Below are positions 15,172 to 35,315 of a stretch of DNA of 64,000 nt, piece by piece (positions within the stretch are counted from its first letter, which is position 1; each line of letters starts with the position of its first letter). This DNA comes from a bacterium. GTDB taxonomy: Bacteria; Joyebacterota; Joyebacteria; Joyebacterales; Joyebacteraceae. A model generated the notes under the pieces. That model was given only the letters and a program-made list of their open reading frames with translations. It was not told the origin of the DNA and did not search any database. The stretch covers positions 232,784-296,783 of the forward strand of contig JALGZK010000003.1 in NCBI GenBank assembly GCA_025774935.1, given 5' to 3'. The translations under genes and the position numbers were made by a program.

Positions 15172-17508
15172 CTAGTCTCTGGTCACGTCCGCTGCCGTCG
15201 CGGACCAGCTGCCGTGAGCCTCCTCGACGATGAACTCGAGCGAGTGGCACGGTTCGAGGATGGCCTCCACCTCCGCCACGTCCGTGCGGACGTCGGCGTC
15301 GAGCGGCACCTTCGCGCCGAAGCGCACCGTGAGGGAAGGAAGCGACGCGCTCGCGGTCACCCGATAGGACGCCCGCGAGGCCGCCTCGTCGACCTCGCAG
15401 AACACGACGAGCGACCCGGTACCGAGTCGGATGGGTGCGGTCACCCACGAGAGGTCCCGGGGAAGCGCGGGACGGAAGTCGAGCGTCCCCTCGAGGAGGT
15501 CCGGCTGGAGGCCGAGGTAGTCCTGGTAGAAGTTGCGGAGGAACTCGGCGTTGCTCCAGGCCTGTGAGACGGCGCCCGCTACGTTCTCCTCGCCCTCCTG
15601 TGGGACGCCGTTCCTGAGCTCAGGGAGCGTTCCCGCCGCCCCTTCGTAGAAGAAGAGGTCCCTCAGCACCTTCGTCTGCTCCCATGCGGCCTCGACATGG
15701 CCGTGCTTCACGAGCGCGCTCACGACCGGGCCGGTCAGCCAGACCCAGACGTCGCCGTTGTGGTAGGCCTCGTCGAAGTGGTAGCGCTCGAGGTCGAGGT
15801 GCTTCGGGTGGAAGTCGGGGTCGTCCGGGTCGAGCGACGTGACGCCGTGCGGCAGTACGCACCTCTCGCGGACCTGGTCCAGTACTCCGGCCTCACGTTC
15901 CCGGGAGAGGATGTCCGTCCACGGCACCGTCAGGGCGAGGATCTGGTTCGGCCGGATCCTCCTGTCGGGTTCGCTGTCCGGCGCGAGGTGATCGTAGAGC
16001 GCCGACCTCTCCGCGTCCCAGAACATCCGACCGAACGACTCGCGGGCCCTGCCCGCCGCGTCGGCCCAACGCTCGACCCGCGACGACTCGCCGGCCAGCT
16101 CCGCCAGGGCGACGCCGGACTCGAGGCCGGTGATCCAGAGAACCTGGATCTCGACCGCGCGGCTCCCTCGCGGGGAGAACGGGTGTGCCTCGCCGCCGGC
16201 GTCCATCCAGGTCTCGGCCTCGCCGTGCAGCAGCAGACCCGACGAGTCCACCCTCTTCGTGAGGGCCCCCTCGATCGCGCGTTCGACCGCGGGGTAGACC
16301 CGGCGGGCGAAGTCGCTGTCTCCGGAGTATCGCATGTACTCGTAGCACTCTCTGAGGAACCACCAGGTCCCGTCGGCGGTGTTGTAGTACCTCGTGCCGG
16401 GCATCGCCAGGTTCGGGATCCTCCCGTAGAACAGGCTGTCTCCGCAGGTCTCCTGGAGATCCGCGAACGTCTCGAGCACCTCCCTCGCAACGCCGAACTC
16501 GCCCCTGACGAGACAGGCGCCCGGAAGACTGATGAAGCTGTCACGCCCCCAGTAGTTGGGGAACCAGTGCAGTCCCGCGAAGATCCCACGACCCATGACG
16601 TTCATGACGAGCGAGTCGACCGACGAGGATGCCCAGAGGAGTGCGTATCTGTAGTCGTTGTCGCGCGTGACTACCCCGATCCCGTCGAGGACCTTGGACA
16701 TGCGCCGCATCTTCTCGTCGTAGAGCGCGAACTCGTCCTCGACACCGCGGAGCGCGAGGGCGATGGTCTCCTCCAGATCGTCGCCCACTGCGATCCCGAA
16801 CGTGACGCTCGAGGCGAACGCCTCGTCGCCCGTGAAGCTGAACTCTATCCTGCCCGGCCAGAACGGCACCGCGGAGGCCATGGCGCGCCGGGCCGCGTCC
16901 TTCGTGTACGTCGTGGGACGATGGTCCGCCTCGGAAACGTAGAACGCGGGCCGGTCGCAGGCGATCGCTACCCAGACGGGGAAGTCGTCCTTCTCCGTCC
17001 TCGCGTCGTGATCGGTTCGGCGGAGCGCGAGGACGCGGCGGTCGGCGTCCCACTGCGACTCGTACTCGAACTTCCCTTCTTCCCAGATGCTCCGGATGTC
17101 GACCCGCGGGACGAAGGCGGCCCTCCCGCGGCTGTTCGTGCCGTACGTGAGAACGAGGAGGTTCTCGCTGTCGGCCAGGAAGACGGTCTCGGTCGTCTGC
17201 CCGATGACGTACTCTCGCGTCATGCTCTGCGGGAGCACGCACGCGCTCTTCACGCCCCACGAGGACAGGGGAACGTCACCGAGGAAGAGATCCCACCCCT
17301 CGAGGAACTTGTGGAGCTCGACGATGAGCCCCTCGTAGCTTCTCGTGTTAGTCGTGCCGGTCTCACCCGCGAAGTAGGCCTTCTCCTTGTTGGTGAGGAT
17401 GTACTCGCGGGACTGGTTCCGTCCGACGACGACCTGGAGACCCTCACGCTTCCCGACGATGGGGAGCCTGCGATCGCCCTGCCTCACGGTCGAGCTCTTC
17501 GTCTCCAT
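15172..17508 (-). CDS. Glycogen debranching enzyme (amylo-alpha-1,6-glucosidase)
   Basis: A 778-residue cytoplasmic enzyme with no signal peptide. It is expected to release alpha-1,6 branch glucose from glycogen or limit dextrins. The N-terminal 270 residues match the beta-rich debranching-enzyme N domain (EYILTNKEKAYFAGETGTTN; NSRGRAAFVPRVDIR). The C-terminal part is an (alpha/alpha)6 barrel with the hallmark NYWGRDSFISLPG (about residues 315-330) and WMDAGGEAHPF. The ATG at 17508 is preferred over the upstream open frame to 17577 because AGGGGAG precedes it. It follows GH57 in the same orientation after a 209-nt gap, so it is the likely intracellular step of the locus. Confidence 0.88.
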   Translation of the reverse strand: METKSSTVRQGDRRLPIVGKREGLQVVVGRNQSREYILTNKEKAYFAGETGTTNTRSYEGLIVELHKFLEGWDLFLGDVPLSSWGVKSACVLPQSMTREYVIGQTTETVFLADSENLLVLTYGTNSRGRAAFVPRVDIRSIWEEGKFEYESQWDADRRVLALRRTDHDARTEKDDFPVWVAIACDRPAFYVSEADHRPTTYTKDAARRAMASAVPFWPGRIEFSFTGDEAFASSVTFGIAVGDDLEETIALALRGVEDEFALYDEKMRRMSKVLDGIGVVTRDNDYRYALLWASSSVDSLVMNVMGRGIFAGLHWFPNYWGRDSFISLPGACLVRGEFGVAREVLETFADLQETCGDSLFYGRIPNLAMPGTRYYNTADGTWWFLRECYEYMRYSGDSDFARRVYPAVERAIEGALTKRVDSSGLLLHGEAETWMDAGGEAHPFSPRGSRAVEIQVLWITGLESGVALAELAGESSRVERWADAAGRARESFGRMFWDAERSALYDHLAPDSEPDRRIRPNQILALTVPWTDILSREREAGVLDQVRERCVLPHGVTSLDPDDPDFHPKHLDLERYHFDEAYHNGDVWVWLTGPVVSALVKHGHVEAAWEQTKVLRDLFFYEGAAGTLPELRNGVPQEGEENVAGAVSQAWSNAEFLRNFYQDYLGLQPDLLEGTLDFRPALPRDLSWVTAPIRLGTGSLVVFCEVDEAASRASYRVTASASLPSLTVRFGAKVPLDADVRTDVAEVEAILEPCHSLEFIVEEAHGSWSATAADVTRD

Positions 17509-17717
17509 GCCACTCCCCTGCAACTCCCCGACCACTCCTGACGAACCGCGTTCCCGCGCGTCCCGACCCCGAAACACACCGCTTCGGCTTCCAGGTCCGC
17601 GGTGCGGCGTCGCTGGCGTTCACACTCGCGGACCAGCTCGAAGCCCGCTCGGTCGACGCGGTTGACGATGCGGACGCCCGGTGCGGGCGCCTTTGGCGGC
17701 TCGCGGCCGCCCGCCGT
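17509..17717. other. Intergenic region with two GC hairpins
   Basis: No gene is supported here. Downstream of the GH57 stop there are two short inverted repeats: GGCGGC-TCGCG-GCCGCC (17696-17712) and CGCCCG-GTG-CGGGCG (17675-17689). Neither has a clear U tract on the minus strand. They may attenuate transcription between GH57 and the debranching enzyme. Confidence 0.4.
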
Positions 17718-20195
17718 CTACTCCACCACGATGAGCGAGTTCCGGCCGCCGTAGGGGTCGGCCACGCCCTCGGGATTGCCCGGGTCCTCGATCCAGCGCG
17801 CCCCGCCGTCGACCACGAACTTGTACTCGTACCGGCCGGGGGCCAGCTCGATCACGACCGTCCAGACCCCGTCGCCGTCCTCGTCCTCCATCGGCGTCGC
17901 GTCGGTGCTCCAGTCGTTGAACCCCCCCGCAAGATGGACGCTTCCCGCTTCCGGCTCCTTCACGCTGAACAGGTACCCGCCCTCGACCCGCGCGGGCCCG
18001 GCGAGAAGACCGCCTTCGCCCTCCGCCCTGGCCATGACGCCCGCGCCGGCACCGGTCGCGCCGGGAGCCGTGCCCTCTCCCGCACCCAGGATGCTCTCGG
18101 AGAGGAACGACGGAGGCTCCTTCCCGATCTCAGTGTACACGTTCGCGAGCATGCCCCGGAAGCTCTCATCGAAGCCGCCCTCGAGGGAAGATGTCTGGTC
18201 GTTCCCGTACCACCAGAACCAGTCGCTCCCCTCCGCCGCGAGAATCTCCCCGAACGCCCGGGCGATGGCATCGTCGTCGGCGTCGCCCTTCGTCCGGCAG
18301 TCCTCGAGGTCGGCCCGAACCGCCGCGAGGTAGTCCCACGCGAGGTTCTCCTCGGGCTCGCCGATCCACGTCGTGAGGTCGTGCCCGATCCACGAACCGG
18401 CCCAGAGCCGCTCAATCGACTTGGTCGGCGGGTGCTGGGCGAGGTACTCCGAGACGGTCACCGTCCCCAGGAATGAGGCGCGGCTCATCTGGTCGTACCA
18501 CGAGCGGAAGAACTCCTTGCCGTCGTGGCGGAACCACTCCCACGCGTTCTCGCCGTCGAGGATGATCGGCACGACGTAGCTCCGCTCGTCCCCCGCGAGT
18601 TCCTGGTGGATCGCGTGGAGGCTCCGCATCATGGAGTTCGCCGCGTCGACGCCGTCCATCTTCCCGAAGTTGAACCCGATGTCGTCCGAGAGCCGGTGGT
18701 CGCGGAAGATCGCGGCGACACGGGCGTCGCCGGCGCCTGCCCAGTACATCTGGTATCGCTGGCGGGAGCTCAGGCGGCCGGCGCCGAGCGACCGCTCGAG
18801 GATCTGGTCGTCCGACGCGATCCACTCGAACCCGGCGTCCGCTACCATTCCGACGATCTCCTGCGCGACGGCGCCCTCGCCCGGCCACATCCCGGCGGGC
18901 CTTCGCCCGAAGAGTCCCTCGTAGTACTCGACGGCGAGTTCGACGTGCCGACGCGCGTCGTCAGGGTAGCTGAAACGGTGCTCAGGGAGCCGGATTCCCG
19001 GAGACGCCACGCGCGCCAGGTCGGTGTCGTACACGAGCGGGAGAATCGGGTGGTAGAACGGTGTCGTAATCACCTCGAGCTGCCCACGGTCCTGCATCTC
19101 CTTGTGAACCGCGACCACGTTCCGAGCGATCGCCATCTGCGCCTCTATGATCTCCCGCTTGTCGGCCTCGGTGTACCCACGCTCCTTCTCGATGAGCGCC
19201 TTCACGCTGCCGACCGTTCCGTCGGGGAGCGTGACGTCTCCCTTCTGGAAGTCAGGGTCGAACCAAGCGAGGTTGAACCACGCCTGGAGGTCGCGCCAGT
19301 CCTGCTCGGTGAACCTCGCCGCCGCCGCGAGGAGCTGGACCTGCGTGTCGCCGCCCTTCTTGCCCTTGAGCTCGCCGTACCGGGGCCAGACGTGAATCAT
19401 GTTGTCCCAGTGGGCGTTGAAGAAGTGCGTGAGGAGATAGACCTGGTCCTCCGCGGTGAGCTCGGCCGCGTCCTTGAGCGTCATCCGAAGGTACGCGTCG
19501 GTCCCCGTCCCGTTCTCGTAGCCCGCGATGATGTCATCGAGCTGCGTGAGAAGAACGGGCGTCAGGTTGACCGTGAAGTGGATCTCCGGGAACTCCGCGA
19601 GGATCGCGACCATGTCGTAGTAGTCCTTGATCGCGTGCATCCTCACCCACGGATCCATGTACTCGCCCGTCTCGGCGTCCCTGAAGTACTTCGGCTGGTG
19701 CTGGTGCCAGACGATCGCCACGGAGAGCGGCGTGCCGAGCGACGGGAGTTCGTCGACGACGGGCTCCGCGGGGCCGAGGTCGGCGGCGAGCGGGCCGAGC
19801 ACAACCGACCCGTCGGAGTCGACCGAGACGACCGTGTTCACCCCGCCGTGGTTGTCGTCCACGGTGTGCGGATTCAGCGGGTCTTCCCTCCACGCGACCC
19901 CCCCGTCGACCACGAACTTGTACTCGTACGTCCTGCCCGCCTGGAGCTCCGTCACCACCTCCCACACACCGTCACCGTCGTCGTCGGACATCGGGAGCGC
20001 CGCTGGGTCCCACCCGTTGAACTCGCCGGCGAGGTGCACGCTCGAGGCGTCCGGCGCCGAGAACGCGAACCGTACCCCGCCGTCGGCAATCGTCGGCGGC
20101 GTGGCATCCGCGGCGCGGGCGACGTGGGGCGCAACGCACGCGAGCGCCAGCGCCGCGGCCGCCCAGAGCGCGAATCGTCTGTTCGTGACGAGCAC
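17718..20195 (-). CDS. Secreted GH57 alpha-glucanase flanked by two CBM48 (E-set) modules
   Basis: An 825-residue enzyme with a signal peptide (RRFALWAAAALALACVAPHVARA). The GTG at 20195 is chosen because GAGGAGG lies 5 nt upstream; the frame extends to 20243 without a better start. Residues about 35-125 and 735-825 are CBM48/AMPK-type glycogen-binding modules, both with EYKFVVDGG and nearby W and DP.NP positions. The middle is a GH57 barrel with WHQHQPKYF (about residue 160), GMWPGEGAV carrying the presumed nucleophile Glu (about 437), WIASDDQIL with the acid Asp, and DGENAWEWF (about 545). It probably hydrolyses alpha-1,4 or alpha-1,6 linkages of starch or glycogen in the periplasm or outside. 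GH57 amylopullulanases are the closest type by motif, but exact specificity is not set. Confidence 0.88.
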   Translation of the reverse strand: MLVTNRRFALWAAAALALACVAPHVARAADATPPTIADGGVRFAFSAPDASSVHLAGEFNGWDPAALPMSDDDGDGVWEVVTELQAGRTYEYKFVVDGGVAWREDPLNPHTVDDNHGGVNTVVSVDSDGSVVLGPLAADLGPAEPVVDELPSLGTPLSVAIVWHQHQPKYFRDAETGEYMDPWVRMHAIKDYYDMVAILAEFPEIHFTVNLTPVLLTQLDDIIAGYENGTGTDAYLRMTLKDAAELTAEDQVYLLTHFFNAHWDNMIHVWPRYGELKGKKGGDTQVQLLAAAARFTEQDWRDLQAWFNLAWFDPDFQKGDVTLPDGTVGSVKALIEKERGYTEADKREIIEAQMAIARNVVAVHKEMQDRGQLEVITTPFYHPILPLVYDTDLARVASPGIRLPEHRFSYPDDARRHVELAVEYYEGLFGRRPAGMWPGEGAVAQEIVGMVADAGFEWIASDDQILERSLGAGRLSSRQRYQMYWAGAGDARVAAIFRDHRLSDDIGFNFGKMDGVDAANSMMRSLHAIHQELAGDERSYVVPIILDGENAWEWFRHDGKEFFRSWYDQMSRASFLGTVTVSEYLAQHPPTKSIERLWAGSWIGHDLTTWIGEPEENLAWDYLAAVRADLEDCRTKGDADDDAIARAFGEILAAEGSDWFWWYGNDQTSSLEGGFDESFRGMLANVYTEIGKEPPSFLSESILGAGEGTAPGATGAGAGVMARAEGEGGLLAGPARVEGGYLFSVKEPEAGSVHLAGGFNDWSTDATPMEDEDGDGVWTVVIELAPGRYEYKFVVDGGARWIEDPGNPEGVADPYGGRNSLIVVE

Positions 20196-20344
20196 GGTAC
20201 CTCCTCGCGTCGCGTCGGGGATCGTCGGCCGTACCCGACCCATGATTCTCCTCTATAGTAGTGGCTCGCCCGGCGTGCCTTCCGCCGGGCGACACGGTGT
20301 CGTATGGGAGGGCGCTCCTGCCGGGGAGCGCGGGGGCTGCGTCG
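20196..20344. other. Intergenic leader with inverted repeat
   Basis: A perfect 10-bp inverted repeat, TCGCCCGGCG paired with CGCCGGGCGA (20266-20292), lies between the glucodextranase-C-like gene and GH57. It is followed by an ACTACTATAG stretch and then the GH57 ribosome site. It could be a terminator-attenuator or an operator. No U tract is present. Confidence 0.4.
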
Positions 20345-21127
20345 CTACTCGATCTCGAGCGCCGGTATCGTGGCCATCTCGCCCGTCTCGAGATCGTAGT
20401 CGCCGAGGATCTCCTCCTGCGGAATCTCGTCGCCGCCGAAGATCACGAGCACGCGCTTCGCCTTCGGCGCGATGATGTCGTACACGTTCGGGTCGATGGC
20501 GAGATCGTGTCCGCCGCCGCCCCGCCACTCTTCCGGTTCGGCCTTGACGTCGCGGAAGTCGCCCAGCCCACCCGCGCCGTAGTCGTCCTGAAGGCCGACG
20601 GCCGGAGTGAAGCGCCAGTCGGCTGCCGCGCCGTCGATCGCGTCGATCGGAACGGTGATCCTGATGGTCCCGGCCTCGATGTCGGTCTCGACGGTCGCCT
20701 CGACGTCGACGGGTTCCGAGTTCGCGTCGATCATCTGCACGGTCTCGCCCGCCGCGAAGATCTGGTACTCCGACGGCGCCTCGAGGAGGCAGTTGGCATT
20801 GCGCCGGAGCTCCTTGTCGCCGCCCTCCTCGGTGTCGATCGCGACGCAGACCATCGTCAGGCGGTTCCCGACGCCCCACGGGTCGACCAGGTTCCTGATC
20901 TTGTACTCGAAGATGAGGTTCCCGTTCTCCTTCTCGATCGCGAACGACAGGAGATCGGCCTCGCCCCCCTCGCCGAAGGACTCGTTCAACGGATAGACGT
21001 AGTCCCCGTCGCCGTAGTCGTCCCCCTCGGGGTCGATCCAGATCGCCAGGACCTCACCCGACGCGGCGGCGGCCGTGCCGAGGATCGCGCCGACCAGAAG
21101 CAGTACCAGAGCGCTTCTCATGTTCAT
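20345..21127 (-). CDS. Secreted free-standing glucodextranase C-terminal-like (Glucodextran_C) protein
   Basis: A 260-residue protein with a signal peptide (LVLLLVGAILGTAAAASG). The mature protein starts with DPEGDDYGDGDYVYP, the hallmark of the glucodextranase C-terminal or amylopullulanase DOMON-like binding module. It continues with the beta-sandwich to about residue 215. Two starts are possible, ATG 21127 and ATG 21121; the run of six G bases directly before the first suits the second start better. The module normally sits at the end of large alpha-glucan hydrolases, and here it is a separate protein between the solute-binding protein and GH57. A glucan-binding role at the surface or in the periplasm is inferred. 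No catalytic motif is seen. Confidence 0.75.
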   Translation of the reverse strand: MNMRSALVLLLVGAILGTAAAASGEVLAIWIDPEGDDYGDGDYVYPLNESFGEGGEADLLSFAIEKENGNLIFEYKIRNLVDPWGVGNRLTMVCVAIDTEEGGDKELRRNANCLLEAPSEYQIFAAGETVQMIDANSEPVDVEATVETDIEAGTIRITVPIDAIDGAAADWRFTPAVGLQDDYGAGGLGDFRDVKAEPEEWRGGGGHDLAIDPNVYDIIAPKAKRVLVIFGGDEIPQEEILGDYDLETGEMATIPALEIE

Positions 21128-21149
21128 CCCCCCGCGCTGGACGGTCCGC

Positions 21150-22382
21150 CTACTCGCCGGCCAGAAGCTTGTCGATCTCGGCGACGGCGGTGTCGAGCGC
21201 GTCCTTGACAGATTTCGTGTTATCCAGGGCCGCCTGCATCTCCGGGTTCATGATGTTCTCCATCTCAGGGTAGTACGGAGTCTGCGGCCGCGCAATCGCG
21301 GTCCTCATCTGCTCCACGAAGACCGCGAGATACGGATGCTCTTCAGACGTGATGGCGTCCATGGCCTTCACGTTCACCGGGATCTGCCCGAGGCTCGTCG
21401 CCCACATCCGCTGGACGTCCTCGCTCGCCACGAACATCAGGAACTCGGCCGCGAGCTCCGGGTTCTTCGAACTACGGAAGACGACGAGGTCGTTCCCCCC
21501 GACGTTGGTCCTGGTACCGGCGGGCCCGGTCGGAATGAGACCGACCCCGAAGTCGAGCCCGGTCTTCTTCAGGCTCTCGACCGCCCAGGGCCCGTTCATG
21601 ATCATCGCGTAGCGTCCGTTCTGGAACCCGAGGTCGTTCTGGATGCCTCCCGACCTCCACGCGCCGCCCTCGATCCGGTGCCTCGCGTACAGGTCGACCT
21701 TGAGCTGGAACGCCTCGACGCCCTCGGGGCTGTTCAGGACACAGCGCGTTCCGTCCCCGGAGAGGAACTCGGCGCCGAACGTGTAGAAGAACGGGAGCGA
21801 CCACCAGAGCGAGTTCCGGACACCGATGCCGAAGACGCCCTGCTCCTCGTCGGTGAGCCTCGTTCCGTACTCGATGAGCTCGTCCCACGTCGCGGGCGGA
21901 CGGTCCGGATCGAGCCCCGCCTGCCGAAAGAGCTCTCTATTATAGAAGAGGCACAGACCGTTCGTCTGGTCCGGGAGTCCCCAGAGCGTTCCGTCGTAGA
22001 CGCAGCTCTGGAGCGCCACCGGCAGGACCTCGTCCCGGAACGCCGCGGGCACGTGCTCCTCGAGCGACAGGAGCGCGTTCTTGCTCGCGAGCTTGGAGAG
22101 GAACGAGACGTCGACCCTCGCTATGTCCGGCTCGGTCCTCGTCGTGAGCGCCGTCTGGATCTTGGGCTCCGCTCCCGCGAACGGCAGCCGGACGATGTCG
22201 ATCGTGATCCCCGGGTGCGCCTCCTCGAACTGACGCACGATCTCCTTGAAGACGGGGTGCTCCTCGTCGTTGTACGTCTGCCAGATGGTGAGCGACGCCG
22301 CCTCCTCCTCCTTCCCGCATCCCCCGAGAGCGACGAGCGCGCAGAGCGACGCGGCGATCAGCCAGACGATGGTCCTTCTCAT
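21150..22382 (-). CDS. Extracellular solute-binding lipoprotein, MalE-like (family 1)
   Basis: A 410-residue ABC importer binding protein. The lipobox (LVALGGC, Cys about 22) predicts a membrane-anchored lipoprotein. The body matches family 1 sugar-binding proteins: SLTIWQTYNDEEHPVFKEIV at the start, DLLFYNRELF-like FYNRELFRQAGLD, PATWDELIEYG, and NGPWAVESLKK. Malto-oligosaccharide specificity is inferred from the neighbouring MalF/MalG-type permeases, GH57 and CBM48 proteins. The gene order permease-permease-binding protein is the reverse of the common order. The ATP-binding subunit is not in the window. Confidence 0.85.
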   Translation of the reverse strand: MRRTIVWLIAASLCALVALGGCGKEEEAASLTIWQTYNDEEHPVFKEIVRQFEEAHPGITIDIVRLPFAGAEPKIQTALTTRTEPDIARVDVSFLSKLASKNALLSLEEHVPAAFRDEVLPVALQSCVYDGTLWGLPDQTNGLCLFYNRELFRQAGLDPDRPPATWDELIEYGTRLTDEEQGVFGIGVRNSLWWSLPFFYTFGAEFLSGDGTRCVLNSPEGVEAFQLKVDLYARHRIEGGAWRSGGIQNDLGFQNGRYAMIMNGPWAVESLKKTGLDFGVGLIPTGPAGTRTNVGGNDLVVFRSSKNPELAAEFLMFVASEDVQRMWATSLGQIPVNVKAMDAITSEEHPYLAVFVEQMRTAIARPQTPYYPEMENIMNPEMQAALDNTKSVKDALDTAVAEIDKLLAGE

Positions 22383-22458: not shown

Positions 22459-23295
22459 CTAGCCCTTGAGCGCGCCCATCGTCATGCCTTCGATGAAGTA
22501 CCGCTGCGCGAAGAAGAAGATCGCGGCGATCGGAAGGACCGAGATGCACGAGCCCGCCATTATGAGCGTGTACGACGCTTCGTGCTGACTCCGGAAGAGC
22601 GCGAGCCCGACCGGGACCGTGTACAGTCTCTCGATGTTCACGACAATGAGCTGCCACAGGAAGTTATTCCAATGGAACTGGAAAGTCAGCAGAAAAAGGG
22701 TCGCGAGGATCGGGATCGAGAGCGGGACCATGATCGTCCGGAATACCTGCCATTCCCCCGCGCCGTCGATCCTCGCGGCCTCAAGGAGCTCGTTCGGGAT
22801 CGTCGTCATGTACTGCCTCATGAGGAAGAGCCCGAAGACGTTGGCGAGGTGCGGCACGATCATCGCCCGGTAGCTGTTCATCCACCCGAGCTTGTTGATG
22901 ATCGCGAACTGGGGAACGACGTACATCATCCCGGGGATCATGAGCGACGCGAGCAGGAACCCGAACAGCTTGTCGCGACCGATGAAGTCCTTCTTGGCGA
23001 ACACGTATCCAGCGAGCGCTGCGAAGAGTGTCGCGAACAGCGCGGCCGTCGTCGCGACGATGACGCTGTTCACGAAGTAACGGCCGAAGCCGAACTCGGT
23101 CAGGACGCGCGTGAAGTTCTCGAGGGTCGGGTTCTTCGGGAAGATCTCTGCCGTGAACGCCTGACCCGGCTCCTTGAAGGCCGTCACGACCATCCAGAAG
23201 AACGGGAAGAGGACCACGACCGCCGCGGCGGTGAGCCCGGCGTAGACGAGCGCGCGCTTCCACCCGCCCGCTCTTGTGCGTCCTCCCACGCTCAT
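22459..23295 (-). CDS. ABC sugar permease, MalG-like
   Basis: A 278-residue inner-membrane permease with six predicted helices. The EAA loop (EAARIDGAGEWQVFRTIMVPLSIP) contacts the ATPase. The ATG at 23295 (MSVGGRTRAGG) is preferred; the frame is open upstream to 23457, but that part overlaps malF and is Arg-rich. It starts 17 nt after the malF-like stop. The C-terminal FIEGMTMGALKG is the typical end of MalG-type permeases. Substrate assignment to malto-oligosaccharides comes from context, not from the sequence itself. Confidence 0.87.
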   Translation of the reverse strand: MSVGGRTRAGGWKRALVYAGLTAAAVVVLFPFFWMVVTAFKEPGQAFTAEIFPKNPTLENFTRVLTEFGFGRYFVNSVIVATTAALFATLFAALAGYVFAKKDFIGRDKLFGFLLASLMIPGMMYVVPQFAIINKLGWMNSYRAMIVPHLANVFGLFLMRQYMTTIPNELLEAARIDGAGEWQVFRTIMVPLSIPILATLFLLTFQFHWNNFLWQLIVVNIERLYTVPVGLALFRSQHEASYTLIMAGSCISVLPIAAIFFFAQRYFIEGMTMGALKG

Positions 23296-23312
23296 CGGGT
23301 GAACTCCATCCG

Positions 23313-24329
23313 TCAGACCTCCTCGGCTCTCAGGAAACGCCTGTTGACGAACGTGACCACGAGCGTCAGCCCGAGGAGCACGTACGACATCGCGGCCGCG
23401 TAGCCGAGCTTGAACTGCGTGTAGAACGTGTCGAAGACGTAGTAGCCCGTGACCCACGTCGCGCCGAGCGCCCTCCCGCCGACATCGACGTTAGGCCCGC
23501 CGCCCGTCATCGCGTAGACCTCTACGAAGGCGTTGAGCGCCGCGATCGTGCCGATGATAACCATGAAGAACGTGATTGGCTTGACGAGCGGAAGAGTGAT
23601 CGAGCGGAACTGCTGCCACGGCGTCGCGCCGTCGATCTCTGCCGCCTCGTAGAGCGAGCCCGGGATGTTCTGGATCGCCGAGAGGTAGAGGATCATGCCG
23701 AACCCCGCGCCCTTCAGGACGTTCGCGACGACGACGGACGGCATCGCCCACGCCGGCATGCCGAGGAATCCCTTCTCCGAGAACGCGGTGATGCCCACGC
23801 TCTCGAGAATCCTCACGAGGACACCCACGTGAGGGCTGTAGATGAGCGTCCAGACGATGCCGACGACGAGCATGTCCAGAACGTAGGGCATGAAGAACGC
23901 GCTCCGATAGGCGGCCACCGCCTTGAGGCGGTTGTTCAGGAGGAGCGCGAGCAGGAGCGACGCCGCGATCCCCGAGGGTATGATGAGTGCGGCGTAGTAG
24001 AGGGTCATGAGGACTGACCACCAGAACTTCACGTCCGCGAAGAGCTTCGCGAAGTTCGCGAAACCGACGAAGGTGAGTCCGCCGAAGATGTCGAACGAGT
24101 CGACGGGAACCCGGTGCAGGGCCAGATAGAGCGAGTAGAAGACCGGGAACGCGAGGAAGACGACGAAGATGATCAGAAACGGTGCGAGGAACGTGTAGGC
24201 GGTCAGGTTGTCGCTGCCTCGGAGAAGCCGAAGACCCGGCTTCCGGGGCCGGGTCTTCCTCCATTCTCTCGTCGGGCGCGCGTCGTGCGCGTCCGCCTGT
24301 CCCGCCTGTGAGGGTCCGGTCGCCGGCAT
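23313..24329 (-). CDS. ABC sugar permease, MalF-like
   Basis: A 338-residue inner-membrane permease. A basic N-terminal tail (about 40 residues) is followed by six or more hydrophobic helices. The EAA loop reads EAAEIDGATPWQQFRSITLPLV. It pairs with the MalG-like permease downstream and starts 6 nt after the stop of the CBM48 lipoprotein gene, so lipoprotein and transporter are likely co-translated. Family membership is clear; the transported sugar is inferred from the surrounding alpha-glucan genes. Confidence 0.87.
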   Translation of the reverse strand: MPATGPSQAGQADAHDARPTREWRKTRPRKPGLRLLRGSDNLTAYTFLAPFLIIFVVFLAFPVFYSLYLALHRVPVDSFDIFGGLTFVGFANFAKLFADVKFWWSVLMTLYYAALIIPSGIAASLLLALLLNNRLKAVAAYRSAFFMPYVLDMLVVGIVWTLIYSPHVGVLVRILESVGITAFSEKGFLGMPAWAMPSVVVANVLKGAGFGMILYLSAIQNIPGSLYEAAEIDGATPWQQFRSITLPLVKPITFFMVIIGTIAALNAFVEVYAMTGGGPNVDVGGRALGATWVTGYYVFDTFYTQFKLGYAAAMSYVLLGLTLVVTFVNRRFLRAEEV

Positions 24330-25109: not shown

Positions 25110-25182
25110 CACGTCTCTCACCTTCCCCACACCTTCCGTTCCGGAAGAGGACGGCGCGGCCGCCCACCCGGACCCCCGTCCA

Positions 25183-27318: not shown

Positions 27319-27409
27319 TCTCCGTCTCCGTGTCGGGCGCCCTAAGCGCCACCTTCGTACCGTGCGGCCCGGCGCCACCGCGACGGACCGTCTCCTGCCT
27401 AACCGTCCC

Positions 27410-28996
27410 CTAGTAGTAGATCCTGAGGAACGTCTTGAACACCAGCTCCGTCGTCGAGCTCGAATCTCGGTTCACGAAGTCGCCGTCGCGGGTCAGGTCG
27501 TTCGAGTGGCCCTCGTTTCCGAACTCGATGAAGAACTCGGCGCCCTGCCAGCCCAGATACCTGAGCTGCATGAACGCCGTCTGCCGCGACTCGGTCTTCT
27601 CGTCGACATTCATGACGCGGCTGTAGAACTTCCATCTGTCGGTGAGGTTCACGTTCGCTTCGAACGCGAACGCCAGGATCTCGTAGGGTGAGTCGATGTC
27701 CTTGATCGCGAACTGCGACCTCAGCCGGACGAGTCGATTCTCCCCGGTCACCTCAAAGAAGAGCGCGGGCCAGGTCCCGTTCTTGTCCTGGTAAACCTTG
27801 TACTCGGCCGTGCCGGTGAACCCGTGGAGGAACTCGATGTAGGTCCAGACGCCCCACTCGTCGATCGTCCCGACGGTCTGCGAGTAGCTCGTGAGTCCGG
27901 GGTGCTCCGGCTCGGCGTGCGTGACCCACCCCGTCACGTTGATCGCTTCGACGGGCACGCGGTACCGCGCCTCGAGGTAAAGCCTCGAGTAGTCGTTCAG
28001 ATCCCGACGATTACCGGACGCGAGTCCGTCGGTATAGAACTCGGCGCCGTACTTCTCGTAGGAGCCTATGAACCGCCAGGCGTTGCCGATCCCGAAGTCC
28101 CTGATCTCGGTCTTGAATCCGTTCGGCTGCGGGTCCTCCAAGGCGGAGAGCCAGCCCGAGATGTTGCGCCCGTACTCGCTCAGCCACGTCACTCGCCCGA
28201 ACCGCGCGAGCGGCGACCAGAGCTCCCCGAGCGCGAGCTCGAGGTCGGCGGCGATGGTCTCGTCGTAGTCGATCGATCTCCCGTGGTACAGGCCGTCGCT
28301 GTAGCGGATGTAGTCCTTGCGGCCGTAGGTCACGCCGTAGAACCCGCGCCTCTTCGGGAACGCCCCCGTGACCCGAAACGCGCGGTAATCGTCGGTCCGG
28401 CCGGTAATGGTGTCCCCCGGCGCCATCCCGGGGTAGTACGACTGCTCCGACTCCGGGATCTCGTCGTAGGCGCGCGTGAAGTAGTCGCTCCGCTCGCTGA
28501 TGAACGCCGCACCGGAGAGCGTGTAGACGTTCCAGAAGTCGAGCCGGATGCCCTGCGCTCGGGGCCCGAAGTTGTCGTGCTTGACGACGTCCGGGTTGAC
28601 GATGTCGAGGAGGGGTTCGTTCAGCCAGAACCGGTTCTGTCCGAAGAAGAGGTGGCCCTCCAGGTTCGACCACCTGTAGCGCATGTGCCCTTCGCGGAGG
28701 AAGAGGAGCGTCTCCTTGACGTCGGTGTCGGCGAGCCTGACCCAGCGGTTCGACTCCGACCACAACTTGAGGAAGGCTTCCAGGTCCATGAGCGGCGTCG
28801 ACCTGAGCGACAGCTCCGCGTAGAGCTGAGGGTTCGACAGCTCCCAGGTCGGGTCGTCGATCGATGAGGTCCGGGTCTCCGCCACGAACGAGGAATAGCC
28901 CTCGATCGTCGTCTGGGCGCGTGCAGGTGGCGCGACCGCGAGAACCGCGAGAACCGCGGCCGGCAGCAGACAGGCTTGTGTGATCGATCGACTCAT
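27410..28996 (-). CDS. Outer-membrane beta-barrel protein, putative porin
   Basis: A 528-residue protein with a signal peptide (LLPAAVLAVLAVAPPARA). It has regular aromatic-girdled strands throughout (for example YRWSNLEGHLFFGQNRFWL, TELVFKTFLRIYY) and a C-terminal Tyr, as expected for an outer-membrane barrel. It starts four bases after the stop of the PorV-like gene and precedes the CBM48-barrel gene. Capacity for a 16- to 18-strand barrel fits maltoporin-like uptake, but no maltoporin motif was recognised. Function as glucan porin is inferred from the locus. Confidence 0.68.
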   Translation of the reverse strand: MSRSITQACLLPAAVLAVLAVAPPARAQTTIEGYSSFVAETRTSSIDDPTWELSNPQLYAELSLRSTPLMDLEAFLKLWSESNRWVRLADTDVKETLLFLREGHMRYRWSNLEGHLFFGQNRFWLNEPLLDIVNPDVVKHDNFGPRAQGIRLDFWNVYTLSGAAFISERSDYFTRAYDEIPESEQSYYPGMAPGDTITGRTDDYRAFRVTGAFPKRRGFYGVTYGRKDYIRYSDGLYHGRSIDYDETIAADLELALGELWSPLARFGRVTWLSEYGRNISGWLSALEDPQPNGFKTEIRDFGIGNAWRFIGSYEKYGAEFYTDGLASGNRRDLNDYSRLYLEARYRVPVEAINVTGWVTHAEPEHPGLTSYSQTVGTIDEWGVWTYIEFLHGFTGTAEYKVYQDKNGTWPALFFEVTGENRLVRLRSQFAIKDIDSPYEILAFAFEANVNLTDRWKFYSRVMNVDEKTESRQTAFMQLRYLGWQGAEFFIEFGNEGHSNDLTRDGDFVNRDSSSTTELVFKTFLRIYY

Positions 28997-29000: not shown

Positions 29001-29879
29001 CTACCAGACGAACATTGCGGAGAGCCTGTAGAGGCTCCCGATCCTGCGCTCCGAGAGGAGCGCGACGTCGACTCTGATGTGTCTGCTCTTGATGCCGACG
29101 CCGGCGGCGATCCGGTCCCGGTTGATGCCGGTCCGGAGGGCGAAGGCGTCGTAGAACCAGAGCTCGATCCCCGCGTTCAGCGTCGTCGAGCCGTCGTAGT
29201 ACTCCGGGACCTCTCTCGGAACCCGCCACTCGACGGAGAAGAGCATGACTTCCCGGAAGAGGTACGTGCCCCCCAGTCTAAACTCGGTGTAGACGGGGTC
29301 GGTCTCGACGGTCGTCGACAGGAGCTTGAGCTTGGGCTCGCCGAGGTTCCGGATCACCGCCGCCGCGCTCCACTGCCCCGAGCGCCAGAGCGCCCCGATG
29401 TCGGCGGCGTACGCGTCGTCCCCGCCCGAGTTGAAGGCAGGGTCGTTGTAGTAGTCGTATCCGGGCGCGTCGATCGCGAACCGCTTGATCGAGAGCCCGG
29501 CGTCCAGGCCTTCGATGGGCGTCCTGCGTCCGTATCCGGCGACGATGGTGTCTTCGTAGTAGAGATCCCGCGCGGCTGTGCGCATCCAGCCGACGCCGAA
29601 GCCCTGTCCTTCCATACCGTACGCGGCCAGCACGGCGTCCTCGTCGAGTCCGTCCACGCTGTACACGCTCGTGCGCTCGCCGAGCACCTGAATCCCCCGG
29701 AAGCTCGCGAGTCCCGCGGGGTTCCAGTGGAGCGCGGAGGCGTCGTCCGCGACCGCGATGAACGCGCCTCCCATGCCGAGCGCCCGGGCCCCGATCTCGA
29801 CCTCCACGAAGTTCGCCGACGCGGCGCCCGCGAGGACGACGATGAGGAGAGGGACGAGAGTGAGCTTCACCGTGCGCAT
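29001..29879 (-). CDS. PorV/PorQ-like outer-membrane protein
   Basis: A 292-residue protein. The signal peptide (LTLVPLLIVVLAGAASA) is followed by the family hallmark GARALGMGGAFIAVADDASALHWNPAGLA, typical of PorV/PorQ and FadL-like barrels of the FCB group. It ends in YRLSAMFVW. In type IX secretion, PorV shuttles cargo carrying C-terminal sorting domains. The upstream 1,790-residue gene encodes such a cargo candidate with a FlgD-like C-terminus, which makes a cargo-specific shuttle plausible. A structural barrel role is the alternative. The gene starts 63 nt after the large gene's stop. Confidence 0.75.
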   Translation of the reverse strand: MRTVKLTLVPLLIVVLAGAASANFVEVEIGARALGMGGAFIAVADDASALHWNPAGLASFRGIQVLGERTSVYSVDGLDEDAVLAAYGMEGQGFGVGWMRTAARDLYYEDTIVAGYGRRTPIEGLDAGLSIKRFAIDAPGYDYYNDPAFNSGGDDAYAADIGALWRSGQWSAAAVIRNLGEPKLKLLSTTVETDPVYTEFRLGGTYLFREVMLFSVEWRVPREVPEYYDGSTTLNAGIELWFYDAFALRTGINRDRIAAGVGIKSRHIRVDVALLSERRIGSLYRLSAMFVW

Positions 29880-29942
29880 GGTCTGCCTGTCAGAGCGTCT
29901 CCCGCCGCCCGGCGGCGAGGACCACGGCGCCGGAGCGCGCCG

Positions 29943-32900
29943 CTACTTGATGACCACGACCGGCCGGTTCACGCGTTCGTAGATCGGCGCGGTCTTGAAC
30001 TTCGCCTCGAGTCGCATGATGTAGATGCCGTACGGAACGACGTTCCCGTTCTCGTCGGTGCCGTCCCAGACGATCTGCATCGGCGTGCGGCCCGTGTCGG
30101 TCGACGCCAGCTGGAACTCGAGCCGGTTGACGAGCCTTCCGGTCAGATCGAAGAACTCGACGTTCACGTAGTCGGCCTCCCGGCCGAGCCAGAACGTCAC
30201 GCGCGTCTCTTCGTAGAGGCCGTCGCCGTTCGGCGAGAACGGGTTCGGCTCGACTCCGACGCCGGACAGGCCCTGTGAGCCGCCGACGTCGAGCTGCTCC
30301 CAGTAGAAGACGCCGAAACGCCCGAAATCGTCTACGAAATTGAGGATGTTCCGTCCGGACGTGTTGGAGTTGCCGCCGACCATGATCCACCGGTCAGTCG
30401 TGTCGTTCCATCTGAAGAGCCCGAACGAGTTCTCGTCGAGCCCTCGCACCTCGTACGGCGGGTAGTGAACGAACAGCCAGGAGAGGTAGTCGAGGCCGGT
30501 GAACGTACCCTGGTCGGTCTCGAGCCAGATGTCCCGGGTGACACCGATGTACTCCATGTCACTCCGGATGTTGTCGATGTCGACCTGCGTGTTCGCGATG
30601 GGATCGAGCACCAGGTCGATCGGTCCCCGCACGTCGGGAAGCGAGTTCGGCTCGAGGACGATGATCGTCCCGTCCTGGAAGATGAACAGCTCGTCCTCGC
30701 CCTCGGTCATGAGGCTGTCGACCTCGGCGAACGTCTGCGTGTCGGACCACGGTTCCGGCACGCCGAGCTCGTAGGGACCAGCCCAGATCTCGTTCTCGTT
30801 CGAGGAGGCATCTCTCGCGTACACCTCCCCCACGATCACGCGCGCGGGCCCCGTCCTAACGAGGTCGACGACGTTCGTCTCCGAGGTGATCTGCTCGCGC
30901 GAGAGGTCCGCCGCCCAGTACGGATCGGCGAGCTCGACCATCTCCGTCACGCGCGTCGCCGTGTCGCCGAGCGTCTGCCAGTGGAATTCCGCCACCTCGA
31001 CGCCCGAGAAGTCGTCGATGGTCGTCCAGAAGACGGCCGGCGCGTCGAGGAGTGCCCTCCAGGGGATGTGCTGGAGATCCGGGTCACCTTCGAACCCGCT
31101 GATCAGAGGCGGCGAGAAGTCCTCGGCGAAGCTCGCCTCGACGACGCACGCGATCTTGCTGTTCAGGAAGCGCGCCTCGGCATCGGGCGTCGTGTAGTCG
31201 AGCATCTCGGACTGCGGGCGGCCCGGCTCGTGCCCGAACCCCGGCGAGGCGGCTACGTCGATGATGTTCGCGTCGCGGTCGCGGCCCACCTCGCTGTCCC
31301 GCCCGCCGCCGAACTGCCACTCAGCCGTGTTCGCGTTCACCCAGCGGATGGCGCCGAGGTTCTGGTCGTTCGAGTCTCCGTCGTGCGATGAGAGACAGAC
31401 GATGATGTCCCACTTCAGGATGGCGGTCCGGATCTCCTCCTCGTCGATCTCGTCTCCCTCGAATCCAAGGAGCTCGCGGTCGACCGCCACGTCGACGTAG
31501 TTCTCGACGTGGTCGTCGCACATCCGGATGTCGGAGTCGCCCTTGAAGAGATCCCACGCCGCGATCGAGGGCGAGTCGTTCGAGACCACGAACCACTTGC
31601 CCCACCCTTCGACGGAAATGCCGTAGTCCCACGCGTCGACGGGGGCAACGTCGACGTACCTGTTCGGGAACCCGGCCGTAGAACCCTTGCCCTCCACGGC
31701 GTCGATGTAGATGTCGATCTTCTGGAGGTTGAGGTCCGTCCTGTTCGGGTTGTCGCACGTCGCGGCGCTCGGCTGGGGGGCGCCCCAGTCGGCGGCGCCC
31801 GCCTCCTGGTGACTCACGAGATCCTGAAGGTGGGTCCTGAAGACGATCCAGTCTCCGTCGGTGAAGATGTCGACACCAGTGATGTCGAACGATCCCGGAC
31901 CGAAGACGAAGTTCGTCGGGTAGAAGTAGTAGAGCCCGGTCACCGGGACGTCGCTGTCGTCGAGCTGGTTCGGACCGTGGTCGTCCCCTATGTCGTCCTC
32001 GAACGACCTGAGCGCCGTCGCCGGGTTGTCGACGTCGAGGAGGATGCCGAGGGCGGTCGGCCAGATGTTGGCGGCGTCCCGCGCGGTCACGGTAAGCGTG
32101 TGCTCGCCGTCCGACGCCGCTCGAGTGAGCGTGTCCCCCGCCGTGTACGTGAAGTCGCCCGCGGTACCGTCGGGAAAGACGCCGTCGTCGGTCATCCTGA
32201 CGAGCGACGAGCCCCCGATGTCCGACAGGTCGATGAAGACGTCGCCGACTCCCCCGCCTCCGTCGCCGACGTCGACCGTGTACGTGACGAAGGCGCCCGG
32301 CTGCGCCGGGGACGGACTCGCGAGCCCGTCCGAGAGATCGGGCGGGAAGCCCTCCTCGAGCATGAGCGCCTTCGCGTAGTTCGATAGATAGACGGAGTCG
32401 GTCGCGGTCTCCCACCAGTCGCCCTCGTCGGGCAGCATGTCGTGCGTCGCGTCGTGAGGCACCGAGTCGAGGGCGTTGTACTTCGTGCCCTCGGCCGTCT
32501 CCTGCATGATGTACCCCTGCACCCGCACGGTCTCGCCCACGGCGGTCTCGAGCGGCGCGAAGGGGAGGCGGAACGCGACCTTCTCGTCGGTCTTCGTGAC
32601 GTAGCCTTCGGCCCGCACGCCCTCGTTCCAGTCGCTCACCCAGGTCTCGCCGACGAAGTCGTAGAACTGCCAGGCGTTGATGTTCCAGCGTCTGAGGTCG
32701 GCGTACTCCTCGCCGGCGTGATCGCTGTACTTGTACGTGAACGCATAATCGGGCTTGTAGGGATGTGTGTAGCCGATCGGGAACGTGAAGGGATCATCAG
32801 ACGCGCCGGTGTCATTCGCGTGCGTCTCGAGCACCACGGCCAGGTGCATGCCCGCCCACGCCGAGTAGAAGTCGTGGGTCACGACGAGAGTGTCGGCGGA

Positions 32901-35315
32901 GTTCGCGACCCGGAGGATCGTGAGATCGGCGCCGGGGTCGCTGTTATGGTCGGGGTCCGACTCGGGAGCCTGCTCATCGGTCGCGATGATCGTGGCGTCG
33001 ATCGGCACGAAGAGCGACTCGACCGTGAGCGCCCCCCCGCTGCCCGCGATCTCAAGCATGCCGTAGTCCGAGCCGACCACTAGCTCACCCGTCGCCACGC
33101 CCTCCGCGTTCGTCACGATCGGCGAATCGAGCGATTCGACGAGGCCGGCGGGGACCGCCTCGAGGAAGACCGAGAGCCCGGCAAGCTCGACGCCGTTCCC
33201 CCAGTCGTCCTGCACCCTCGCCGTGATCTCGGAGACGCCTCCGTCAGTGAGCGCGGCGGGGTTCGCCGAGAGCACGACCGTCGAAGCGTCGCCCGGCAGG
33301 AGCGTCATCTCGAGCGTGTCGACAGGGAGGTTCGCGTACGCCGACGACTGGTCGATGATCCCCGTCACGTACGCGACGCCGGCGTTGAGCCCTCCGAAGT
33401 CGACTCCGAACCGGCCGTTCGCGTCCGTCTCCGGCGAGCTGACGCTGAAGGCTCCTCCGACACCGAGCGCCTGCATGTCTACGCCCACGCCCTGGACCTT
33501 CGCGTCGTTATCGCTGGCGTCCTTGAGCTGGCCGATGATGCGCGCCACGTCCTCGAAGACCTCGAGGGTGTCGACGTCCGAGATGAGTTCGAGCCGGACC
33601 GGCTCGGGTTCCTTGATGCCGACCTCGAAGACGCCCACGATCGCGTCACGCGTAGCCTGGACGTCGCGCGACGCCTGGACTCGAAGTACCTCGATCGCAT
33701 CGTTCGCCGTCAGGAACTCGGCGCGCGCATCGTCGAACATGTCCGCGGTGATCATCGAGTCCGCGAGGAGGACCGTGTCGCCGTCTGCGAAGACGACCGT
33801 CCCATTCGGGGGATACGCCGGGTCGAGTCTCGTCGCAGTGAGCAGGACGCTGTCCTGCGCCGTCTCGTCCCAGTATGCGATCCGGTCGTCGTCGTCCCGC
33901 GGTTGGAGCCACGCCTCGGCGAAGTAGAAGAGTGTGTCGTCCGGGATGCTCACGGTCGTCGCAGAGCTCAGGATCGTGTTCCCGAGCGAGTCCGTAAAAG
34001 CGTACTGCGTTGCGACGACGACGGGGAGCTCCATGGTCCCGACCTCGGTCGTATCGCCGTTCGCCACGATCGTGTCGACCGAGGCCTCAACGTAGCCCTT
34101 GCCCTCGGCCACGACCTCGTAGGGACCGTCGAGAAGCGTCCCGATCGAGAACGGGCCGGTTCCCCCCACGACGAGGAACGGACCCGTGCCCCCGATCTCC
34201 CCCGTGACAGCGTCGTAAGCGGTGACCGTCACGTCGACGGCGGGACCGCCTCCAGTGAGCGCTACGTCGCCTTCGATCCGGCCCGTCACGAACTGGATTA
34301 CGAAGTCCTGGCCGGTCACTTCGGTCGTGTCGGTGGCGACGACCACACCTTCGATCGAGTCCGAGAGATACGACGGAGCCGTGGCGATCAGATCGTACGT
34401 CCCGGCCGCGAGGCTCGTGACGGAGTACGGTCCGCCTCCGGGAGGGGTCTCGGCGGACGCGTACTCGACGTCGCCAACGTAGGCGGTGACCGTCGCCACG
34501 GTCGTGAGGTCGCCGGGCTCGTCGAGCGTCACCGTGCCGGAGATCCTGCCCTGGGGCGGGTACCCTCGATCGGGGATCCCGTCGCCGTTCGCGTCGACCG
34601 GGACCTCCGCGTAGAGATCGAGATCCGTCACCGCGTCCCATGGATACCCCGGGTCCGTCTCGATCTCCGTGCTCGTCGTCGGGACGGCGTCGAACGCGCC
34701 GGACCCGTCGCCTCCGACGGTCGCCGCGACCGCGCGGACCCGCGTCCCCGCCGGCACCACGCCGTGGCCGAGCCCGTAGAGGCCGTTCCACGAGATCGCG
34801 AACTCGTGCTCCCGCCATCCGGGGTTCCACTGCGAGAAGAACTCGTCGATCGGGACCGTACTCGTGACGTCCGTGCAGTCCCTGGCTTCGAAAGGGATCG
34901 TGCTCCCGCCGTCCCAGCCGGCGACGATAACGTCGACGCCCATCGTACTGAAGGTGATGTTCCTGCCGTAGAAGTCAGAGTCGTTGAAGTCGGTAGCGCC
35001 CGTGATCCCGTTCTGTGCGTCCGTGTCGAGGTAGACCACGAGCCCGTTCCCGAAGCCGCCGGGGCCGCCGTCGGTCCTGAACCCGACGTAGAGGCTGTCC
35101 GCACTCCAGGTCATATAGAGATCGTAGAGATCCGTGTCGCCGCCGTAGCGGCAGTCGTCGGTCGGGTCCTCGGCGGCGAGTTCGTCCGCGTCCCAGTCGG
35201 CAGGCTCGACCACGATGTGGCCGTCGACGTCTGGTGAATTGTAGCTGGTGGAGACCGCGAGTCCCGCGGAGAGAAGGACAGTGAGAACGGCGATGAGCGG
35301 AGGACGTCTCGGCAT
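29943..35315 (-). CDS. Very large secreted protein with glucodextranase-C-like, carboxypeptidase-regulatory-like and FlgD-like domains
   Basis: A 1,790-residue protein with a signal peptide (LIAVLTVLLSAGLAVS). Residues about 25-235 form a DOMON/CBM9-like beta-sandwich (DLYMTWSADSLYVGFRTDGG). Two carboxypeptidase-regulatory-like repeats follow (RISGTVTLDEPGD and RIEGDVALTGGGP), then Ig-like Big domains. Around residues 1110-1340 the sequence DDIGDDHGPN to YYFYPTNFVF matches the glucodextranase-C signature and contains RWVNANTAEWQFGGG. The final 100 residues are a FlgD-like Ig fold (VEPNPFSPNGDG, then PYGIYIMRLEA). No glycosidase catalytic motif is evident. It is first in the glucan gene run and probably a surface glucan-binding scaffold sorted with the help of the PorV-like neighbour. 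Confidence 0.78.
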   Translation of the reverse strand: MPRRPPLIAVLTVLLSAGLAVSTSYNSPDVDGHIVVEPADWDADELAAEDPTDDCRYGGDTDLYDLYMTWSADSLYVGFRTDGGPGGFGNGLVVYLDTDAQNGITGATDFNDSDFYGRNITFSTMGVDVIVAGWDGGSTIPFEARDCTDVTSTVPIDEFFSQWNPGWREHEFAISWNGLYGLGHGVVPAGTRVRAVAATVGGDGSGAFDAVPTTSTEIETDPGYPWDAVTDLDLYAEVPVDANGDGIPDRGYPPQGRISGTVTLDEPGDLTTVATVTAYVGDVEYASAETPPGGGPYSVTSLAAGTYDLIATAPSYLSDSIEGVVVATDTTEVTGQDFVIQFVTGRIEGDVALTGGGPAVDVTVTAYDAVTGEIGGTGPFLVVGGTGPFSIGTLLDGPYEVVAEGKGYVEASVDTIVANGDTTEVGTMELPVVVATQYAFTDSLGNTILSSATTVSIPDDTLFYFAEAWLQPRDDDDRIAYWDETAQDSVLLTATRLDPAYPPNGTVVFADGDTVLLADSMITADMFDDARAEFLTANDAIEVLRVQASRDVQATRDAIVGVFEVGIKEPEPVRLELISDVDTLEVFEDVARIIGQLKDASDNDAKVQGVGVDMQALGVGGAFSVSSPETDANGRFGVDFGGLNAGVAYVTGIIDQSSAYANLPVDTLEMTLLPGDASTVVLSANPAALTDGGVSEITARVQDDWGNGVELAGLSVFLEAVPAGLVESLDSPIVTNAEGVATGELVVGSDYGMLEIAGSGGALTVESLFVPIDATIIATDEQAPESDPDHNSDPGADLTILRVANSADTLVVTHDFYSAWAGMHLAVVLETHANDTGASDDPFTFPIGYTHPYKPDYAFTYKYSDHAGEEYADLRRWNINAWQFYDFVGETWVSDWNEGVRAEGYVTKTDEKVAFRLPFAPLETAVGETVRVQGYIMQETAEGTKYNALDSVPHDATHDMLPDEGDWWETATDSVYLSNYAKALMLEEGFPPDLSDGLASPSPAQPGAFVTYTVDVGDGGGGVGDVFIDLSDIGGSSLVRMTDDGVFPDGTAGDFTYTAGDTLTRAASDGEHTLTVTARDAANIWPTALGILLDVDNPATALRSFEDDIGDDHGPNQLDDSDVPVTGLYYFYPTNFVFGPGSFDITGVDIFTDGDWIVFRTHLQDLVSHQEAGAADWGAPQPSAATCDNPNRTDLNLQKIDIYIDAVEGKGSTAGFPNRYVDVAPVDAWDYGISVEGWGKWFVVSNDSPSIAAWDLFKGDSDIRMCDDHVENYVDVAVDRELLGFEGDEIDEEEIRTAILKWDIIVCLSSHDGDSNDQNLGAIRWVNANTAEWQFGGGRDSEVGRDRDANIIDVAASPGFGHEPGRPQSEMLDYTTPDAEARFLNSKIACVVEASFAEDFSPPLISGFEGDPDLQHIPWRALLDAPAVFWTTIDDFSGVEVAEFHWQTLGDTATRVTEMVELADPYWAADLSREQITSETNVVDLVRTGPARVIVGEVYARDASSNENEIWAGPYELGVPEPWSDTQTFAEVDSLMTEGEDELFIFQDGTIIVLEPNSLPDVRGPIDLVLDPIANTQVDIDNIRSDMEYIGVTRDIWLETDQGTFTGLDYLSWLFVHYPPYEVRGLDENSFGLFRWNDTTDRWIMVGGNSNTSGRNILNFVDDFGRFGVFYWEQLDVGGSQGLSGVGVEPNPFSPNGDGLYEETRVTFWLGREADYVNVEFFDLTGRLVNRLEFQLASTDTGRTPMQIVWDGTDENGNVVPYGIYIMRLEAKFKTAPIYERVNRPVVVIK

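Follow-up and report, generated by a model that had tools for sequence, protein, structure and literature searches.

A probable alpha-glucan scavenging operon with two related outer-membrane barrels in Candidatus Effluviviacota

Polysaccharide uptake in didermic bacteria has mostly been described as a task of SusCD and TonB, or of small porins combined with periplasmic enzymes, and the amylopullulanase of Thermococcales is a GH57 enzyme. The described systems closest to the locus reported here are the E. coli maltose system (LamB/MalS/MalEFGK/MalPQZ), in which MalS is periplasmic (PMC10223318), the MD operon of Thermococcales (mdxEFG-pulA-mdxK), in which a MalEFG-type importer is encoded together with an amylopullulanase (PMC4158304, PMC2246101), and SusCDEFG of Bacteroidota. 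Remote, multitask ATPases of sugar importers, of the MsmX/MsiK/UgpC type, are also known (PMC7658222), and the mal operons of Thermotoga likewise have no adjacent malK (PMC2246101).

The locus was analysed within a window of 64,000 nucleotides (the whole stretch of DNA examined; G000:C2:232784-296783) of a 3.24-Mb draft genome that is 96% complete. The host is a member of Candidatus Effluviviacota, not of Bacteroidota; an origin from the latter was ruled out, and the neighbouring genomes are those of Ca. Effluviviaceae and relatives. The bacteria of this phylum live in cold seeps and are predicted to be Gram-negative (PMC11323493). The paper on the phylum names GH57 and starch degradation, and its main text makes no mention of the locus (PMC11323493).

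Gene content, conservation and likeness to described systems

Eleven minus-strand ORFs, lettered A to K in the order of transcription, occupy positions 15172-35315 of the window, the coordinates first given for the locus (Table 1). The intergenic gaps are 4-140 bp, with 6 bp at the border of E and F, apart from one overlap, which arises because the MalG ORF was begun too far upstream. By Pfam, GDE_C, GH57 with a CBM48 at each end, SBP_bac_1 and two BPD_transp_1 permeases are borne out, as are the double-CBM48 lipoprotein (E), the CBM48 N-terminal to the barrel (D), and Glucodextran_C both as a stand-alone protein and within A. The sequence-only reading had listed 11 co-directional genes with this content, a MalEFG-type importer and an alpha-glucan theme. 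The ORFs and Pfam agree with the list, SBP_bac_1 and the two BPD_transp_1 matches confirm the importer, and the presence of GH57, a debranching enzyme and CBM48s points to the substrate that was proposed. No riboswitch or other Rfam element was found in the window.

Table 1. Genes of the locus and its conserved neighbours (positions are those of the window)
Gene	Position	Strand	Product	Remark
P	35486..36331	-	SIR2-family gene	conserved upstream neighbour of A
A	29943..35315	-	1790-aa secreted protein	signal peptide, CarboxypepD_reg, Big_1-like, Glucodextran_C (residues 1104-1376), C-terminal FlgD_ig
B	29001..29879	-	PorV/PorQ-like outer-membrane protein	FadL-type; under curated cut-off
C	27410..28996	-	528-aa outer-membrane barrel	no named family; porin-like
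D	25183..27378	-	CBM48 followed by a predicted 22-strand outer-membrane barrel	no plug domain; true start likely ~27318 (MKTRSH...)
E	24336..25130	-	lipoprotein with two CBM48 domains	LSSC lipobox
F	23313..24329	-	MalF-type permease	
G	22459..23457	-	MalG-type permease	listed start overlaps F and is probably upstream of the true one
H	21150..22382	-	MalE-type sugar-binding lipoprotein	LGGC lipobox
I	20345..21127	-	secreted stand-alone Glucodextran_C protein	
J	17718..20243	-	secreted GH57, amylopullulanase-type motifs	CBM48 at both ends; without type IX tail
K	15172..17577	-	cytoplasmic archaeal-type glycogen debranching enzyme, GDE_C	true start probably METKSS, ~70 bp downstream of the listed start
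L	12996..15161	-	membrane protein, hydrophobic ends	weak MG2/CARDB matches; 10 bp after K

The phylum was sampled with 20 genomes from one family and eight genera. In tblastn searches with the window proteins against contigs of the relatives, the order Q(Fer4_5)-P(SIR2)-A-B-C-D-E-F-G-H-I-J-K-L-M-N-O was unchanged wherever the contig was long enough. Gene order is thus conserved in 8 of 8 genera, and the loss of conservation that had been named beforehand as refuting was not seen. Because this order is kept at about 44-97% protein identity of A-K across all eight genera, it is far beyond chance and the operon is real. L is kept beside K in those genera whose contigs reach that far, and nearby in L076 and L077; it is probably the twelfth and last gene of the operon. 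The contigs that reach the region upstream of A (35486-37286 in the window), L077 included, carry there the SIR2-family gene and one for a membrane protein of ferredoxin type (Fer4_5), neither with an obvious tie to glucan uptake.

The C barrel is a single-copy gene in 18 of 20 genomes and in all 13 of the high-quality genomes, and one genome that is 95% complete (G009) is without C, D and J. In three genomes of genus g3 (G004, G005 and G007; loci L047, L049 and L054), the block is kept, yet J is missing from precisely its place between I and K; the operon can thus do without a GH57 of its own. The same genomes keep I, the former tail of J. In G004 (L085:412-3234), D and E lie in one frame after a deletion in which D lost its final strand and E its signal. 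This may be an assembly or mutation artefact, a real deletion being the alternative, and the fusion was set aside as evidence.

With the E. coli maltose system, the locus would share passive porin passage, an extracytoplasmic amylase, MalE-MalFG-MalK import, cytoplasmic processing and independence of TonB and SusCD. Unlike that system, with its LamB porin and GH13 enzyme, it has barrels (C and D) that are not LamB by Pfam and a GH57 enzyme; it also carries CBM48s on a barrel and a lipoprotein, includes a type IX-type secreted protein and a PorV-like protein, and has its MalK outside. With the Thermococcales MD operon it shares importer genes next to a GH57 amylopullulanase-type gene (in the order F, G, H, I, J). 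However, the MD operon is archaeal, with no outer membrane to serve, and contains mdxK, whereas in our host MalK is encoded on another contig, Glucodextran_C stands as a protein by itself and the importer genes follow an outer-membrane module.

The SusCDEFG system of Bacteroidota would serve the same task; the CBM lipoprotein E recalls SusE/SusF, and a large outer-membrane barrel is found in both. In contrast, there is no SusD in the phylum and no TonB-dependent receptor in the locus, import across the inner membrane is of the ABC type, and the enzyme is GH57 where SusG is GH13. As SusD and SusC, two defining features of a Sus locus, are absent, the locus is not of that type. The sequence-only reading had presented it as an alternative layout for polysaccharide utilisation, which we correct in that the layout has precedents: the maltose system of E. 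coli and, in Thermococcales, the mdxEFG-amylopullulanase operon (PMC4158304, PMC2246101). The system would work like the former joined to the layout of the latter, with a new barrel pair. Besides this pair, the novel features are the link to type IX secretion and a 22-strand barrel whose CBM48 is predicted to be on the periplasmic side; in the open-licence literature, neither a CBM48 barrel nor the locus was found to have been described before.

The outer-membrane module

All absences reported here come from family (profile) searches. None of the 20 genomes from the phylum gave a match to SusD_RagB (PF07980) in a search that was positive in a Bacteroides control, and SusD was also found in 0 of 8 wider relatives. 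The locus has no SusC or SusD gene, as had been read from the sequence. The contrast with Bacteroidota drawn from this is misplaced, as it presupposes a missing system: the host is of another phylum, and SusD was not found at all in its 20 genomes. There is consequently no sign of SusCD replacement, and SusCD was probably never present in this lineage rather than replaced.

Neither Plug nor TonB_dep_Rec matched any protein of the locus or any of 21 D and 21 C homologues, and a hidden SusC within C or D was ruled out (0 of 21 members each). A search for TonB receptors elsewhere in the genome, proposed along with the first reading, found two Plug-domain receptors in the host, both on contigs other than the locus contig. 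Neither is SusC by the curated cut-off, as both lie far under it and score better as a haem, B12 or siderophore receptor.

The model of D, made with 21 homologues (mean pLDDT 80), shows exactly 22 long strands after CBM48, with odd loops of 8-46 residues and even turns of 2-5. In outer-membrane proteins, the long loops normally lie outside and the short turns inside. Given outward loops of 8-46 residues against inward turns of 2-5, the two termini of D lie on the periplasmic side in this model, and CBM48 is most likely there or in the lumen, not at the surface. With CBM48 so placed, D would capture glucan after, not before, its passage through the outer membrane. The proposal of a CBM-fused barrel is upheld in that CBM48 is N-terminal to the barrel in D, but not as a device for surface capture, the CBM48 being predicted as periplasmic or luminal. 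Its ligand-type residues W31, W46, K60 and N83 (mature D) are invariant in 21 sequences from three lineages, and W68 is kept in 20 of the 21.

Among the matches listed, the best structural match of D was a TonB receptor (5fp2_B; VIA Z 18.1, rmsd 4.3, 370 aligned residues). The alignments of TonB receptors to D begin just after the receptor plug and, among the same matches, ushers and AlgE are close behind. Since these are nearly as good, the likeness of the D model to TonB receptors may be one of equal barrel size alone. The 22 strands are common to both, but D has no match to Plug (PF07715) or TonB_dep_Rec, and CBM48 holds the N-terminal plug position.

For C, no Pfam or NCBIfam family was found, and its model is poor (pLDDT 67), giving generic porin matches (MOMP/AlgE/Occ/maltoporin-type). 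The LamB family gave no match in 21 C and 21 D members at E up to 1, and no PDB sequence relatives of the barrels were found beyond the CBM48 of D. C and D are homologous by profile comparison (probability 96%, E 1.9e-9), which suggests that the pair probably arose by duplication, with one copy bearing CBM48.

At residues 1704-1771, A carries a FlgD_ig domain (29.0 bits, cut-off 27), a type used as a sorting tail in type IX secretion. The SprA translocon (PF14349) is encoded in 17 of 20 genomes, the host included, which suggests that A is probably displayed by type IX secretion. B may serve this step for A. It had been called a PorV-like factor, and a PorV-like protein is indeed present, although its 78 bits fall under the PorV_fam cut-off of 90. 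A 1066-aa protein with ~13 LVIVD repeats and a FlgD_ig tail, encoded at 37685-40882, is a probable type IX cargo, and FlgD_ig-like tails are repeated in G000:C2:215000-234999.

Importer, enzymes and exchanged partners

The binding protein (H, SBP_bac_1) and two permeases (F and G, BPD_transp_1) are encoded together, and the nearest solved relatives of H include maltose-type binding proteins. There is no ATPase gene in the locus. One OB_MalK protein of the UgpC/MalK type is encoded per genome, outside the locus, in 17 of 20 genomes; in the host its gene is on another contig, directly followed by that of a ROK glucokinase. This distant single MalK presumably powers MalFG, and an ATPase encoded away from its importer is shared with the MsmX/MsiK/UgpC-type systems (PMC7658222).

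J carries the motifs HQP, TTPFYHP, GMWPGE and LDGEN, which we take to be those of an amylopullulanase-type GH57. Its signal peptide, together with the lack of a type IX tail, makes the periplasm a likelier site for J than the surface. A second GH57, 43% identical to J and without a signal peptide, is encoded at G000:C2:93532, and GH13 enzymes are encoded on contigs C12, C21 and C28. One secreted GH13 with CBM48 outside the locus (G000:C21:56400-58450; L059:6329-8806) resembles the enzyme of the Krumholzibacteriia operon. Since GH57 and Glucodextran_C form one protein in L077-L079, I is the detached tail of J. Glucodextran_C modules had been proposed as glucan binders, and this was not borne out, the Pfam domain being SLH-like and one of the two modules a detached GH57 tail. 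A close relationship between the Glucodextran_C of A and that of I was also dropped, as BLASTP gave fragments only. D, E and J contain five CBM48 copies, one with F replacing the second W. CBM48 is also common in glycogen-synthesis enzymes, so CBM48 alone is no proof of uptake.

When the C barrel was searched for in 84,980 named species, 28 loci were found, 'Candidatus Effluviviaceae Genus IV' among them. A-B-C were in the same order on 'Eisenbacteria'-titled or unnamed contigs (L076-L079, L081 and L084) and in Krumholzibacteriia or related lineages (L086-L092), and D and an E-type protein followed in order where these contigs were long enough. The outer module A-B-C-D-E thus occurs in 'Eisenbacteria'-titled and unnamed contigs, of which L077, L078 and L079 carry the single GH57-Glucodextran_C protein beside it, and A-B-C-D plus an E-type protein are present in Krumholzibacteriia. 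In the phylum around L088, 80 genomes were covered, and ~26 of them encode a near full-length D. The D protein of Krumholzibacteriia bears two CBM48s and the E-type protein one; malEFG is there on the opposite strand and, in L086, the adjoining enzyme is a GH13 with three CBM48s, plus a CBM20 protein, in place of GH57. Between the outer module and the GH13 gene of L086 lie two tandem similar proteins, the first with CBM20 (L086:14723-17271), which are possibly further surface or periplasmic starch-binding proteins.

The importer and the barrels differ in their relationships. In L078, MalE shares 50% identity with its Krumholzibacteriia counterpart and 25% with H, while the C/D barrels of L078 are 47/38% identical to those of the locus and 33/29% to those of Krumholzibacteriia. 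The trees for the importer and for C+D have the same branching order, and the branch between the two groups is 1.9 for MalE and 2.2 for MalFG against 0.2 for C+D. We read this as an outer module that stayed constant while its importer was probably exchanged, although the long branch may instead reflect an importer that evolved faster along one branch. In all three lineages, A-E have an alpha-glucan importer and a CBM48 amylase as neighbours. That the alpha-glucan partners outlast both importer and enzyme swaps is the best evidence from sequence for the substrate.

Proposed function and its alternatives

We consider it likely that the locus is an alpha-glucan scavenging operon of a didermic bacterium without SusCD. 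The genes, their order and conservation, their domains, the lack of SusD, the topology of the D model, the one MalK, the GH57-Glucodextran_C fusion elsewhere and the varying importer and enzyme beside a constant outer module are computational results. The substrate, the direction, the locations of E and J, the pairing with MalK and the roles of A and B are what we infer, as follows. The related barrels C and D would let maltodextrins or short branched alpha-glucans through the outer membrane independently of TonB, and the CBM48s of D (in the periplasm), E (two) and J would keep the glucan at the site of cleavage by J. The products could then be passed by MalE (H) to MalFG (F and G), powered by the single distant MalK, and K, probably with the cytoplasmic GH57 paralogue and the glucokinase, would complete the breakdown in the cytoplasm. 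A would be displayed by type IX secretion, possibly with B.

It is unlikely that two adjacent units have been taken for one, i.e. a Thermococcales-like F-K cluster with an unrelated envelope/type IX unit (A-E) merely upstream. The importer lineage and the enzymes do vary between lineages while A-E stay, and the opposite strand of malEFG in Krumholzibacteriia fits such an arrangement. However, D and E bear alpha-glucan-type CBM48s with conserved ligand residues, A-E lie beside an alpha-glucan importer and a CBM48 amylase in every one of the three lineages, and only 6 bp lie between E and F.

The substrate could also be an alpha-linked glucan other than starch or glycogen, or a small sugar of the trehalose/maltose type, with the CBM48s being structural. 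Ligands vary in this MalE-type family, whose specificity is unreadable from sequence, but the amylopullulanase-type motifs of the GH57, the debranching enzyme, the five CBM48 copies in D, E and J, and the GH13 and CBM20 proteins in distant versions of the locus make this very unlikely. The least probable explanation considered here is that the barrels export or secrete an alpha-glucan or glycogen-like polymer in an AlgE-like manner and that the ABC part recycles its breakdown products. C resembles AlgE among other porins, and CBM48 is frequent in enzymes of glycogen synthesis; yet no synthase or polymerase is found in the locus, in which hydrolases and a solute-binding-protein importer dominate.

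D could tentatively be seen as the founder of a new kind of outer-membrane glycan channel, an idea that we regard as possible rather than probable. It would be a plugless barrel of TonB-receptor size with a periplasmic or luminal CBM48 in place of the plug, which gates or traps alpha-glucan by affinity and not by TonB energy, and is paired with the related C and a surface protein displayed by type IX secretion. This module would be common to at least three uncultured lineages and inherited independently of the importer and amylase.

The operon suggests another arrangement for the use of alpha-glucans, with two barrels of no named family. Its C barrel occurs once per high-quality genome of a seep-dwelling phylum, and the operon can be traced to Krumholzibacteriia. 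It could provide a concrete gene set for how such bacteria use the glycogen or starch of dead biomass, and a marker for similar loci.
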